From: Sphingomonas sp. LHG3406-1
GTDB taxonomy: Bacteria > Pseudomonadota > Alphaproteobacteria > Sphingomonadales > Sphingomonadaceae
DNA length: 64,000 bases
Direction: 5' to 3'
Assembly: GCF_029637485.1 (NCBI RefSeq)
Contig: NZ_CP069128.1
Coordinates: forward strand, 1,302,001 to 1,366,000
The notes beneath the pieces were generated by a model, which worked only from the letters and a program-made list of their open reading frames with translations, did no database searches and was not told the origin of the DNA. This document shows positions 21,065 through 24,917 of this stretch, piece by piece. How positions within the stretch are numbered: the first letter of the stretch is position 1; each line of letters opens with the position of its first letter. Made by a program: the position numbers and the translations under genes.

Positions 21065-21484
21065 ATGTCCAGCAGTTTGAAGAGTACGGGTCTGACGGCT
21101 CTTGCCTTCTCGGCTTCGTTCGGCCTGATCGCGATTGCGATCGCGCCCGCCACCGCCTTTGCCCAGTCTCCCGATATCAGCATCACTGCGCCGTACGAGG
21201 AAGAAGCGCTGAGCAAGCGGGTGGCGATCGGCGACCTCGACCTCGCCAAGCCGCGCGACATGAAGCGCCTCGATGCCCGCATCCGCAGCGCCAGCCGCGC
21301 CGTCTGCGAGCCCAACGGCTTCAGCCTCATCAACGACGACGAACTGCAGTGCCGCAAGGTCGCCGTCGCCTCGGCCCAGCCGCAGGTCGCCCGCCTTCGC
21401 GACCAGGCGCTCAGCCTCGCCGCCGCCGGTCAGCCCAGCCGCATCGACACCACGCTCGCCGTGGTCGCGCCCGACGCGGAGTAA
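21065..21484 (+). CDS. UrcA family exported protein
   Basis: A 139-residue protein with a clear signal peptide (ending PATAFAQ) and the UrcA layout: VAIGDLDLAKPRDMKRLDARIRSASRAVCEP, a second Cys (DELQCRK) and a helical C-terminus. UrcA proteins are common in Sphingomonadales and Caulobacter; their role is unknown. The ATG is preceded by AAGGGG. A strong hairpin follows the stop. Confidence 0.85.
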   Translation: MSSSLKSTGLTALAFSASFGLIAIAIAPATAFAQSPDISITAPYEEEALSKRVAIGDLDLAKPRDMKRLDARIRSASRAVCEPNGFSLINDDELQCRKVAVASAQPQVARLRDQALSLAAAGQPSRIDTTLAVVAPDAE

Positions 21485-21504
21485 GGCGCCTTGGGGGCAA
21501 GCAC

Positions 21505-21550
21505 AGGGGTCACGAACCGTCATGCCAGGGGGCATAGGTTCGTGGCCCCT
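21505..21550 (+). terminator. Long hairpin after the UrcA gene
   Basis: AGGGGTCACGAACC pairs with GGTTCGTGGCCCCT over 14 positions (one G-U), with an inner ATGCC/GGCAT stem. There is no U-tract, but position and strength suggest the UrcA transcript ends here and it insulates the trp leader promoter. Confidence 0.65.
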
Positions 21551-21576
21551 CGTCAAGGCCTCGCCAGACTATTCGC

Positions 21577-21605
21577 TTGACCTGTAGGACCGCTTGGTCT
21601 TTTCT
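21577..21605 (+). promoter_or_regulatory. Predicted promoter of the trp-type leader
   Basis: TTGACC, a 17-base spacer and TTTTCT (3 of 6 matches to the -10 consensus). The spacing would start transcription at or within a base or two of the leader-peptide ATG, giving a leaderless mRNA; no ribosome-binding site precedes that ATG, which fits. Confidence 0.45.
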
Positions 21606-21611
21606 TTGCCC

Positions 21612-21689
21612 ATGGTTCGCACCGCCCTTCAGACCAACCTCCGCCATTGGTGGCGCTGGCAGTCCCATGAGCGGCGTGCCGGCCACTAG
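21612..21689 (+). CDS. trpL: Trp-rich leader peptide (TrpL-like)
   Basis: A 25-residue ORF with three Trp codons in four positions (HWWRWQ, residues 12-17), followed by a stop, a hairpin-capable segment and the intrinsic terminator at 21722-21750, all ahead of aroF-trpE-trpG. This is the arrangement of ribosome-mediated transcription attenuation, in which stalling at Trp codons during Trp shortage favours an antiterminator. A self-complementary CGCCA/TGGCG pair around the Trp codons could be stem 1:2, and GCGGCG downstream could pair with CGCCG of the terminator as 2:3. There is no Shine-Dalgarno, consistent with leaderless translation. Confidence 0.85.
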   Translation: MVRTALQTNLRHWWRWQSHERRAGH

Positions 21690-21721
21690 CGCAATCGACC
21701 TTCCCGAGCGCTGATTGACCG

Positions 21722-21750
21722 ACCCGCCGTTTTCCGGCGGGTTTTTGTTT
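21722..21750 (+). terminator. trp attenuator terminator
   Basis: ACCCGCCG and CGGCGGGT arms with a TTTTC loop, followed by TTTTGTTT: a textbook intrinsic terminator 50 bases before aroF and 33 bases after the leader-peptide stop. Its left arm is complementary to the GCGGCG segment in the leader ORF, allowing a competing antiterminator. Confidence 0.85.
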
Positions 21751-21799
21751 GCGCGCAAGCCTGCCGGCCTCCCCGTTACAGTCCGACAGGAACAAGCCC

Positions 21800-22813
21800 A
21801 TGATCATCGTTCTCAAGCCCGAAGCCCCCGCCGAAACTGCCGAGCGGCTGATCGCCCGGATCAAGGATGCCGGCCTCCAGCCGCTCCACATGCCAGGCGC
21901 CGAACGCGTCGTCCTCGGCGCGCTTGGCGACGAGCGCGTGCTGGCCGAACTGGCCCTCGACAGCGATCCCGCCGTCGAAAGCGTCAAGCCGATCCTCGCC
22001 CCCTACAAGCTCGTCAGCCGCGAGCTTCAGGCGCACGACACAGTGGTCGACATCGGCGGCGTCAGCGTCGGCGGCGACCGGCTGGCGGTGGTGGCCGGGC
22101 CATGCGCGGTCGAAAGCGCCGACCAGCTGCACGAGACCGCTGCGGCGGTGAAGGCGGCCGGCGCCACCCTGCTGCGCGCCGGTGCCTACAAGCCGCGCAC
22201 CAGCCCCTACGGCTTCTCCGGCCACGGGCTCGAAGGTCTCAAGATCCTGCGCGAGGTCGGCGACGATCTTGGCCTGCCGATCGTCACCGAGGTGATGGAC
22301 ACGGCCGACGTCGCCCATGTCGCCGAGGCCGCCGACTGCCTCCAGATCGGCGCCCGCAACATGCAGAATTACGCGCTCCTGCGCGCGGTCGGCGCGGCCG
22401 GGCGCCCGGTGCTGCTGAAGCGCGGCCTGTCCGCGACCATCCAGGAATGGCTGCTTGCCGCCGAATATCTGATGGCCGCCGGCAACAGCCAGGTCATCCT
22501 GTGCGAGCGCGGCATCCGCACTTTCGAGCCTGCCACGCGCAACACCCTCGACCTCAATGCGGTGCCCTACGTCAAGCTCAAGACCCATCTGCCGGTCGTG
22601 GTCGATCCGAGCCACGGCACCGGCATCCGCGACCTCGTGCCCGCGATGAGCCTGGCCGGCGTGGCCGCAGGGGCGGACGGGCTGATGATCGAGGTGCACC
22701 GCGACCCCGCCGTCGCCCTCTCGGATGGCGCCCAGTCGCTCTACCCGGCGCAGTTCGAGAGGCTGATGGCGGCGCTGGCGCCGGTCGCGGCGGCGGTCGG
22801 CCGGCAGCTGTGA
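21800..22813 (+). CDS. aroF: 3-deoxy-7-phosphoheptulonate (DAHP) synthase
   Basis: A 337-residue type I-beta DAHP synthase, first enzyme of the shikimate pathway. An N-terminal ferredoxin-like regulatory domain ([21 protein letters not shown]...) is followed by the barrel with [61 protein letters not shown] and DPSHGTG. The N-terminal domain of this class binds an aromatic amino acid for feedback control. AGGAAC precedes the ATG. Its TGA overlaps the trpE GTG by three bases within GTGA, and the gene lies directly behind the Trp leader, so it is likely to be the Trp-controlled isozyme. Confidence 0.95.
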
Positions 22814-24348
22814 AGGTCGAAGCACGGGTCCTCGCCCGCCGTCTGCCGGCCGGACTCGATCCCCTGACGGCCTATCGCGCGCTCGGCGCCGGCGTGCCGG
22901 GCACGGGCCTGTTCGAGGCGCCCGAGGGCCAGTGCCTGGTGATGGGCCGCGCCTGCGTGCGGGCTGAGGCGCGCGACGGAATTGTCGAGCTGGTGGCCCT
23001 CAATGCCAATGGCGAGGCCCTGCTGACCGCGCTCGACACCAGTGCCGCCATGGAGCGGCGGACCGACCGGCTGACCCTCGCCTTCGCCAAGCCGCGGAGC
23101 GACGATGCCGCCGAGCGCCTGCTCGGGCCGCAGCCGCTCCATGCACTGCGCGCCCTGCTCGCCGCCGCCGCGGCCCCGAGTGGCGAGCCGTTCGGGGCAA
23201 TCCTGCTCGGGATCGCGGGCTTCGACCTTGCCGCCTGGGGCGAGGAGATGCCGGCCGGGCGTGCGGCCGACTTTCCGGAATTCGTCTTCTGGGTGCCCGA
23301 CACGTTGCTGACGGTCGCGCCCGGCGGCGCCGCGCGCCTGCTGTGCACGGCATTCGGCCCCGACGAGCGGCATGCGAATGACGCGGCTCGGCGGCTGGAG
23401 GAGGGGCTGGCGGCACTCGCCGCAGCACCGGCGCCTTTCGACTTCGCTCCGGGCGAACGAGCAAAGACTGTCGTTGGTCCTGAGTGGAGCGCCGAAGGCG
23501 CGAAGTCGAAGGGCCTCATCGCATTCACCCCGGACTTGTCCGACAACGATTACGCCACCCTCGTCACCCGCCTCAAGCAGGAGATCGCCGCCGGCGAGGT
23601 CTATCAGATCGTGCCGAGCCGGACCTTTCGCGGCCCCTGCCCCGACCCGCTCGCCGCCTACGCCCGCCTCCGCCGCGCCGAACCCGCCAGCTACCGCTTC
23701 TACCTTTCGGGTGAGGACTGGACCCTGCTCGGCGCGAGCCCGGAGACCAGCGTCCGCCTGTCCGCCGGCGGCGCGAGCGGCCGGATCGTCGAGGTGAAGC
23801 CGATCGCCGGCACCCGGCCGCGCGGCGCCACCCCCGACGAGGACGACCGGCTGGAAGCCGAGATGCGGCTCGACGGCAAGGAACTGGCCGAGCACATGAT
23901 GCTGGTCGATCTCGCCCGCAACGACGTGGCGCGGGTGTCGCTCCCCGGCACTCGGCGGGTGGCGAAGCTGCTGACGGTGGAGCGGTTCGCCCGGGTCATG
24001 CACCTCGTGTCCTCGGTCACCGGAACGCTCCGGCCCGGCCTCGATGCCTTCGACGCGCTCGCCGCCTGCCTCAACGTCGGGACGTTGGTCGGTGCGCCCA
24101 AGATCCGGGCCATGCAGTTGCTGCGCCAGCATGAGGCGACCCGGCGCGGCCCCTATGGCGGCGCGATCGGCTGGATTGCGGGCAACGGCCGGATGGACAC
24201 GGCCGTGGTGATCCGCTCGGCGATGGTGAAGGACGGCGTGGCGAGCGTCCGGTCGGGCGCGGGCGTGGTCCACGACAGCATCCCCGAGGCCGAGGCGGCG
24301 GAGACCCGCGCCAAGGCCTCCGCCCTCCTCGGAGTGCTCGGCGCATGA
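22810..24348 (+). CDS. trpE: Anthranilate synthase component I
   Basis: A 512-residue chorismate-utilising enzyme converting chorismate and ammonia to anthranilate. The catalytic half has [75 protein letters not shown] and YGGAIGWI. The start is a GTG overlapping the aroF stop. Residues about 208-237 are encoded by an in-frame palindromic repeat and read as a Lys/Gly/Ala-rich linker unlike the rest of the protein; it falls between the N-terminal domain and the catalytic core, where it should be tolerated. trpG overlaps the 3' end by four bases. Confidence 0.95.
23431..23517. repeat. Palindromic repeat inserted in the trpE coding region
   Basis: Arms CCTTTCGACTTCGC and GCGAAGTCGAAGGG pair over 14 positions, with inner GAACGA and TCGTT segments. 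The core matches the intergenic palindromes at 18971-19003 and 43190-43233. It is in frame, carries no stop and adds about 30 codons to trpE. Confidence 0.75.
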
Positions 24349-24917
24349 GACCGGTCCTCCTCATCGACAATCTCGACAGCTTCACCTACAACCTGGTCGA
24401 GAGCCTGGAACGGCTTGGCGCCGAGGTGCTGGTCCGCCGCAATCGGATCGCCGCCGCCGACGCGCTGGCAGAAGCTCAGGGGAAAGGCGCGATCATCATG
24501 ATCTCGCCCGGGCCCGGCGCACCGAAAGAGGCGGGCTGCTGCCTCGACCTCATCGCCCTGGCGAAGGGCAAGGTGCCGGTGATCGGCATCTGCCTTGGCC
24601 ATCAGGCCCTCGTCGAGCAGGCGGGCGGCGCCGTCACCCGCGCGCCCGATCCGGTGCACGGCAAGTCGATGCTGCTCAGCCATGATGGCGCTGGTCCGTT
24701 CGCCGGGCTGGAGAACCCCGTGCGGGTCGGGCGCTACCACAGCCTCTGCACCCGCGACCTGCCGGGACGCTTCACCGTCCATGCCGCGGTCGACGGCATG
24801 GCCATGGCGTTCAGCGACGCCGAGGCCATGCAGGCGGGGCTGCAATTCCACCCGGAAAGCATCCTCACCACGCGCGGCGATGCCATGCTCGCCAACCTGC
24901 TGGCGATGTTCGCCTAG
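24345..24917 (+). CDS. trpG: Anthranilate synthase component II (glutamine amidotransferase)
   Basis: A 190-residue class I glutamine amidotransferase that supplies ammonia to TrpE (possibly also to PabB). It shows LLIDNLDSFTYNLVE, MISPGPGAPKEAG, the nucleophile in GICLGHQA and the HPESILTTRG His-Glu pair. Its ATG overlaps the trpE TGA (ATGA). The stop TAG overlaps the stop of a convergent small ORF within a shared CTAG. Confidence 0.95.
   Translation: MRPVLLIDNLDSFTYNLVESLERLGAEVLVRRNRIAAADALAEAQGKGAIIMISPGPGAPKEAGCCLDLIALAKGKVPVIGICLGHQALVEQAGGAVTRAPDPVHGKSMLLSHDGAGPFAGLENPVRVGRYHSLCTRDLPGRFTVHAAVDGMAMAFSDAEAMQAGLQFHPESILTTRGDAMLANLLAMFA

Follow-up and report, generated by a model that had tools for sequence, protein, structure and literature searches.

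A probable leaderless tryptophan attenuator before the aroF-trpE-trpG genes of a Sphingomonas genome and its relatives

The attenuation mechanism of the E. coli trp operon is well established. The locus described here raises the question whether a short Trp-rich open reading frame and a terminator standing before a DAHP synthase gene, aroF, in a sphingomonad act in the same manner, and how they came to be found there. The locus lies within a 64,000-nt stretch of Sphingomonas sp. LHG3406-1 (NZ_CP069128.1, positions 1,302,001 to 1,366,000, forward strand), which was analysed as a whole and is called the window below. On re-reading the sequence, the leader ORF with its WWRW motif, the terminator and the overlapping aroF, trpE and trpG genes that the original prediction had described were all found in their places, and from its anatomy, conservation, start-site spacing and complementarity, all legible in the DNA, the locus is very probably a ribosome-mediated Trp transcription attenuator. 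Its features are, in order along the window:

21577..21582, + strand: -35 box TTGACC, 35 nt 5′ of the leader ATG; the TTGA spacing is kept in 39/42 sphingomonad leaders
21600..21605, + strand: likely -10 region TTTTCT, a weak match 17 nt 3′ of the -35 box, placed by aligning 39 upstream regions
21612..21689, + strand: trpL-like leader ORF of 25 codons, MVRTALQTNLRHWWRWQSHERRAGH, with ATG at 21612 and stop TAG at 21687-21689; the predicted start is the first base of the transcript
21648..21659, + strand: segment 1 with the Trp codons W13, W14 and W16 (at 21648, 21651 and 21657)
21669..21681, + strand: segment 2, GAGCGGCGUGCCG, predicted to pair with either the Trp-codon segment or the terminator left arm
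21721..21750, + strand: intrinsic terminator made up of segments 3 and 4 and a U-tract (a 9-pair hairpin at 21721-21743 followed by T-rich sequence)
21800..22813, + strand: aroF, type I-beta DAHP synthase with a ferredoxin-like N-terminal domain (PF18152 and PF00793)
22810..24348, + strand: trpE, anthranilate synthase component I, GTG start, assigned by its domains; PIAGT present, LLES motif absent
24345..24917, + strand: trpG, anthranilate synthase component II, assigned by domain matches

The aroF and trpE genes overlap by 4 bases, as do trpE and trpG, and the best match of AroF among solved chains is 1rzm. Terminator-like sites occur at 3 per 700 nt around the locus compared with 0.4 in shuffled sequence, and the leader folds with -57.9 kcal/mol (z -2.98), more stably than 200 of 200 shuffles. 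Seven short ORFs with three Trp within seven residues are present on the two strands of the 64-kb window, among which the leader ORF alone has a terminator within 90 nt; when the region 21577-21799 was dinucleotide-shuffled, one of 5000 shuffles yielded a comparable Trp ORF on the + strand, a terminator not being required. Searching the whole window with Rfam release 15 at the gathering score gave two tRNAs only, and at E up to 5 the region 21400-21900 gave four matches, all below their thresholds, the best being to the anti-hemB sRNA model with 22.3 of 49.5 bits. A consensus promoter scan gave no sigma-70-type site at the locus, and the promoter is assigned from the TTGA box, which keeps its position among the leaders. 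Between 17899 and 28738 of the window, the aroF-trpEG unit appears from the translations to be flanked by the genes of ribosomal proteins L1 and L10.

The arrangement is conserved among the sphingomonads. The comparison covered 43 sphingomonad aroF loci, from 35 of 71 genomes of the genus, 7 other genomes of the family and Sphingomonas parva. A terminator precedes aroF in all 43, with differing sequences, and trpE, judged by a loose distance rule, is the next gene in 43/43. In 42/43 the terminator is preceded by a complete Trp-rich leader ORF, the exception (L249) being at a contig edge with just 113 nt of sequence 5′ of aroF. Loss of the Trp codons in relatives, named beforehand as an observation that would speak against attenuation, was thus not seen; the leaders carry 2 to 5 of them, and at least three in 41/42. 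Outside the Trp residues the 42 leader peptides have hardly any likeness, and in six loci that were compared the leader and terminator pair recurs before aroF despite dissimilar peptides and dissimilar upstream DNA. The aroF of this type is itself rare in the family, being present in 12/397 genomes (E up to 1e-80), while another draw of 249 family genomes gave 72 AroF matches with 5 true relatives, the remainder at most 40% identical. At the ordinary sphingomonad trpE genes (L116-L140, the best 25 of 247 genomes matched), leader and terminator occur together in 0/25 loci, a Trp ORF with ATG passing a loose filter in two, and a terminator in one.

The start of transcription may be placed from the same loci. 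A TTGA box lies 35-37 nt 5′ of the ATG or GTG of the Trp ORF in 39/42 leaders, at a background of 1.6% of positions, and among the 281 ATG and GTG triplets in the leader regions, those with TTGA at this spacing are 39 leader starts and nothing else. The three leaders that deviate are L082 (41 nt), L085 and L253. Since the spacing is so regular and a Shine-Dalgarno-like word is seen in 2/39 sphingomonad leaders, the leader start codon is most likely the first codon transcribed, in agreement with the leaderless leader mRNA expected in the original prediction.

Switching between alternative RNA structures was examined by folding the RNA from a stalled ribosome (at the first clustered Trp codon, with an assumed 14-nt footprint) to the terminator left arm, against 200 dinucleotide shuffles. 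The energy is below the shuffle mean in 41/42 loci with a mean z of -1.94, where the z-scores come from related loci and are not independent, for which reason no combined probability is given. Individually, 23/42 loci have p up to 0.05 and one of the 42 has z just above 0. Of the left-arm bases, 79% are paired as compared with 56% in shuffles (42 loci, 13 in detail). Ten close relatives share an unchanged block, GCGGCGTGCCG, 3′ of the Trp codons, which can pair with either the Trp-codon segment, as predicted by RNAalifold, or the terminator left arm; the RNAalifold consensus of these ten leaders contains segments 1-2 plus 3-4, and pairs changed on both sides number 0/19, so that strict covariation is not seen among them. 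In wider relatives the helices between segments 2 and 3 retain pairing with different letters, as in GGAGGCG:CGCCTCC, GATGGCG:CGCCATC and GGCGGGCCG:TGGCCCGCC, with the longest uninterrupted helix reaching only 4 pairs in several leaders. Of the ten close leaders, seven have the conserved GGCGTGCCG block in frame 0 and three have it in frame 1, and because it is read in two frames, selection appears to act on the RNA and not on that part of the peptide; as the three frame-1 leaders are close kin, the frame shift may be a single event. The reading as ribosome-mediated attenuation is hence supported by comparison through the leaders (42/43) and the terminators (43/43), with left-arm pairing tending to exceed that of shuffles.

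The proposed mechanism would proceed as follows. RNA polymerase would start on the leader AUG, at its A or beside it, and the 25-codon ORF would be translated from a leaderless mRNA. With ample charged tRNA-Trp, the ribosome would reach the stop codon with segment 2 either covered or paired with segment 1; with segment 2 unavailable, segments 3 and 4 would form the terminator hairpin and transcription would end near 21750. With too little charged tRNA-Trp, it would stall as a translating ribosome at W13, W14 or W16 and leave segment 2 free to capture the terminator left arm, so that RNA polymerase would continue into aroF-trpE-trpG.

As to where the module comes from, the order leader-terminator-aroF-trpE-trpG is also found in Photobacterium, Enterovibrio, Salinivibrio and Kangiella, and in Photobacterium (L003) and Kangiella (L005) the operon directly continues with trpD, a fused trpCF and trpB. 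A Trp-rich leader and a terminator are present in 26/26 aroF-trpE loci of this gammaproteobacterial type; trpE passes the gap rule in 24 of them and the other two also encode TrpE. The set includes genomes of three other families that share leader, terminator, aroF and trpE, called gamma-type because their TrpE groups with those of E. coli and the named gammaproteobacteria. It excludes L007 (110 nt of upstream sequence, with a terminator and no leader seen), L168-L170 (no trpE match in the stretch and no leader) and the second or partial AroF matches L187, L201 and L202. Across the phylum, an AroF of the window's type was found in 9/398 genomes (E up to 1e-80), three of the nine without trpE or leader. 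Among 84 aroF loci (L002-L085), trpE or trpG lies within the examined stretch in 14; the remaining loci, from other phyla, show no trpE or trpG link within that stretch, and in the 74 loci L008-L081 no leader ORF with WW precedes aroF.

Quick trees were made of both proteins. In that of TrpE (71 rows, including 26 of the 43 sphingomonad loci, with warnings for one long row and uneven composition), the 26 aroF-linked sphingomonad and 20 gamma rows separate from 25 ordinary sphingomonad TrpE with a support of 100, while the aroF-linked sphingomonad rows form a single clade with an unsure support of 45. In that of AroF (90 rows, including 45 of the 74 other loci), the sphingomonad and gamma trp-linked proteins and two metagenome bins make one group, likewise with a support of 100. 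A member of the same genus, G077, has the whole operon aroF-trpE-trpG-trpD-trpCF-trpB-trpA, and in four ordinary loci (L156-L159) and in G044 (L155) an unfused trpC, encoding the TrpC half only, follows trpG-trpD. The simplest reading is that the aroF-trpE of gammaproteobacterial type was transferred from a gammaproteobacterium, the direction being what we infer; type I-beta DAHP synthase is described as unusual among gram-negative bacteria in a passage of PMC1173090. The module would then derive from a trpL-aroF-trpEGDCFBA operon of gammaproteobacterial type that has been split in the window's genome.

The gamma-type loci have TTGA 63-79 nt before the leader start in 19/26, an SD-like word in 9/26 and TrpR-like words in the three Vibrionaceae. 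A leaderless start may be possible for some of them, and the contrast with the sphingomonads is incomplete because 4/26 have TTGA at 35-37 nt. Tandem Trp-rich leader ORFs, possibly double attenuators, are seen before aroF in L005 (Kangiella), L163 and L183-L186, each ORF in L005 being followed by a terminator-like hairpin. In L164, L165 and L166, a second Trp-rich ORF (e.g. MLTTKVKSWFIWWLQPIYAG) is located 3′ of the terminator and ends 30-33 nt before aroF.

The remaining trp genes of the window's genome are found within 1.717-1.731 Mb (L171) in one tight run, trpD-trpCF-trpB-trpA-SDR-DAHP synthase type II-aroA-aroC. There trpD has before it another Trp leader, MKSWHPWRTNMAAARWRWR (with one more codon if a GTG is the start), and a terminator, and the same eight genes with a Trp leader and a terminator occur in seven relatives (L264-L270). 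In all 12 loci that have trpD in the stretch, of 14 loci given, a start codon of the leader has a TTGA box 34-38 nt 5′ of it. The split-off trpD part, joined to DAHP synthase II, aroA and aroC, would thus have a leaderless Trp attenuator of its own. The genome has one PF00793 protein, which is AroF, and a single PF01474 gene, whose match falls into two pieces; since this type II enzyme lies in the trpD operon, DAHP synthases of both families are downstream of predicted Trp attenuators. The suggestion that aroF gates entry into the whole aromatic pathway is accordingly to be modified: aroF is not the sole entry, as a second, type II enzyme is encoded, and what remains of the idea is that this enzyme, too, is encoded behind a predicted Trp attenuator, at the distal end of an operon.

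The link between trpA, SDR and type II DAHP synthase is found at 8/30 loci of the type II gene in the genus, and all eight linked genomes also carry the attenuated aroF. At the other 22 (L215-L236), up to 300 nt of upstream sequence (about 150 nt in L226) showed neither a terminator nor a leader ORF rich in aromatic residues. From these counts the type II-trpA link looks like a clade-specific addition, and the trpD operon may have an internal promoter. Two genomes, G911 and G870, have an attenuated aroF without the type II link. The gene between trpA and DAHP synthase II in the eight genomes (5132-6061 of L171) is named SDR by its sequence. In L149 (G145) and L153 (G197), a trpD operon with Trp leader and terminator occurs with no aroF match in the genome, and the best TrpE-like match of these genomes, a weak one with E about 1e-42, could be PabB. 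In G901 (L243), which has attenuated aroF-trpE and no type II match, AroF might be the only DAHP synthase; 2.0 of its 3.04 Mb gave no type II or E. coli AroG-like match, and one weak AroF match (30% identity) that may be KDO8P synthase.

Other explanations for the conservation of the leader have to be considered. The terminated leader RNA of about 140 nt, its peptide or both could act in trans like rnTrpL and peTrpL of Sinorhizobium meliloti, and this could be the main reason for conservation. By analogy, the predicted leaderless leader resembles that of S. meliloti and would be released as a small mRNA, and peTrpL peptides are reported to have a conserved role despite low sequence conservation (PMC7298713). 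Against such a role stand the lack of likeness between the leader peptides beyond Trp and the occurrence of the GGCGTGCCG block in two frames; moreover, the trpDC genes, related to a part of the split operon here, are a target of rnTrpL in S. meliloti (PMC7298713), and as the trpD operon carries its own attenuator a trans route to it would not be needed. We therefore hold a trans function as the main reason to be rather improbable. Control of translation or by Rho, with the leader ribosome making Rho sites or the aroF start more or less accessible and the terminator playing a secondary part, is conceivable over the 110 nt from the leader stop to the aroF start in the window, yet the intrinsic terminator is kept in all 43 loci while its sequence varies, and it is with its left arm that the segment 3′ of the Trp codons pairs, which makes this alternative very unlikely. 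That the hairpin merely terminates an upstream transcript, the gene of the UrcA family on the + strand ending about 240 nt 5′ of it, and that the ORF arose by chance is scarcely credible given the leader-terminator pair in 42/43 sphingomonad and 26/26 gamma-type loci and the rarity of such an ORF among shuffles.

With ribosome-mediated attenuation as the preferred reading, the enzymes themselves deserve attention. PIAGT, which we take to mark anthranilate synthase, is present in 43/43 aroF-linked sphingomonad TrpE. The LLES motif, described as part of the Trp site of TrpE (PMC6437058), is absent at the aligned place in all 42 assessable aroF-linked sphingomonad TrpE, with residues missing after it; L250 reads LLET, L258 has LLET elsewhere and L263 yields no N-terminus. 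The motif is kept in 19/20 gamma TrpE (the other reads LLET) and in 24/25 ordinary sphingomonad TrpE, with one row misaligned. In the type II DAHP synthase, 54-65 residues are missing in 15 aligned genus sequences as compared with 0-2 in 8 others, and the missing stretch would correspond to helices 2a and 2b, which carry the Trp sites in relatives. Tentatively, Trp control might have moved from the enzymes to RNA, with two leaderless attenuators ahead of the trp genes and of the genes of EPSP synthase, chorismate synthase and both DAHP synthases, a TrpE without LLES and a type II enzyme without its Trp-site segment, and with Phe, Tyr, folate and quinones depending for their chorismate on read-through; we regard this as a somewhat doubtful proposal. 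The type II residues are also missing in genus members without the trpA link, and Trp is reported to inhibit an archaeal anthranilate synthase that has no LLES (by a title cited in PMC6737238), both of which count against a trade of allostery for attenuation, and loss of Trp feedback is for these reasons put forward as a hypothesis. If the distal genes are reached by read-through, tRNA-Trp charging would gate, at its entry and at its exit alike, a shared aromatic pathway which also feeds Phe, Tyr, folate and quinones. If true, this would be a natural case of allosteric Trp control replaced by RNA control, and of a captured operon of gammaproteobacterial type refitted with leaderless translation.

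The locus shares features with several known systems. As in E. coli trpL-trpEDCBA, a Trp leader is associated with trpE, trpCF is fused according to the annotation and TrpE belongs to the same branch; it differs from that operon in having a type I-beta DAHP synthase first, an apparently leaderless leader, and a split operon with a second attenuator. Like trpLE(G) of S. meliloti, it has a Trp leader, predicted to be leaderless, and probable attenuation in an alphaproteobacterium (PMC7298713), but in S. meliloti, by the account given there, only trpE(G) among three trp operons is attenuated, whereas here aroF-trpE-trpG would be, and trpD by its own attenuator. The closest likeness in gene order is to Photobacterium marinum (L003), Enterovibrio (L004) and Salinivibrio (L006), which have leader-terminator-aroF-trpE-trpG and related AroF and TrpE; the gammaproteobacterial operons differ in being contiguous with trpD-trpCF-trpB (L003, L005), in the TrpR-like words of three Vibrionaceae and in a TrpE that keeps LLES. 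TrpR is described as absent outside the gammaproteobacteria, and in Vibrionales a DAHP synthase gene, aroF2, has been predicted to be under TrpR control (both in PMC5343134).

Attenuation at DAHP synthase genes has been proposed before, in attenuation-like form for uORFC-13-1 of Acholeplasma (PMC8632094) and as a Tyr-tRNA-sensing attenuator for aroF of E. coli and Shewanella (PMC2659441); as those passages present them, these are stand-alone aroF genes and not aroF-trpE behind a Trp leader. In marine metagenome contigs, a DAHP synthase (aro) gene follows trpA (PMC2395257), distal and, in the text describing them, with no attenuator, whereas here aroF opens its operon, and it is the type II enzyme, in the second operon, that lies distally. 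Nothing was found in the open-licence literature searched on sphingomonads with a Trp attenuator ahead of DAHP synthase, or with two Trp attenuators, Vitreschak 2004 and Merino 2008 being outside that scope. As far as can be judged from the DNA, the locus probably holds a known kind of Trp attenuator, and what is unusual is its setting: the leader mRNA is probably leaderless, the gene behind it encodes a type I-beta DAHP synthase, and the captured operon is split, its other half having a predicted attenuator of its own and the other DAHP synthase. What is added here to the known systems is a rare aroF-trpE of gamma type, a trpD operon with DAHP synthase II behind a second, predicted attenuator, and a linked TrpE that has no LLES.
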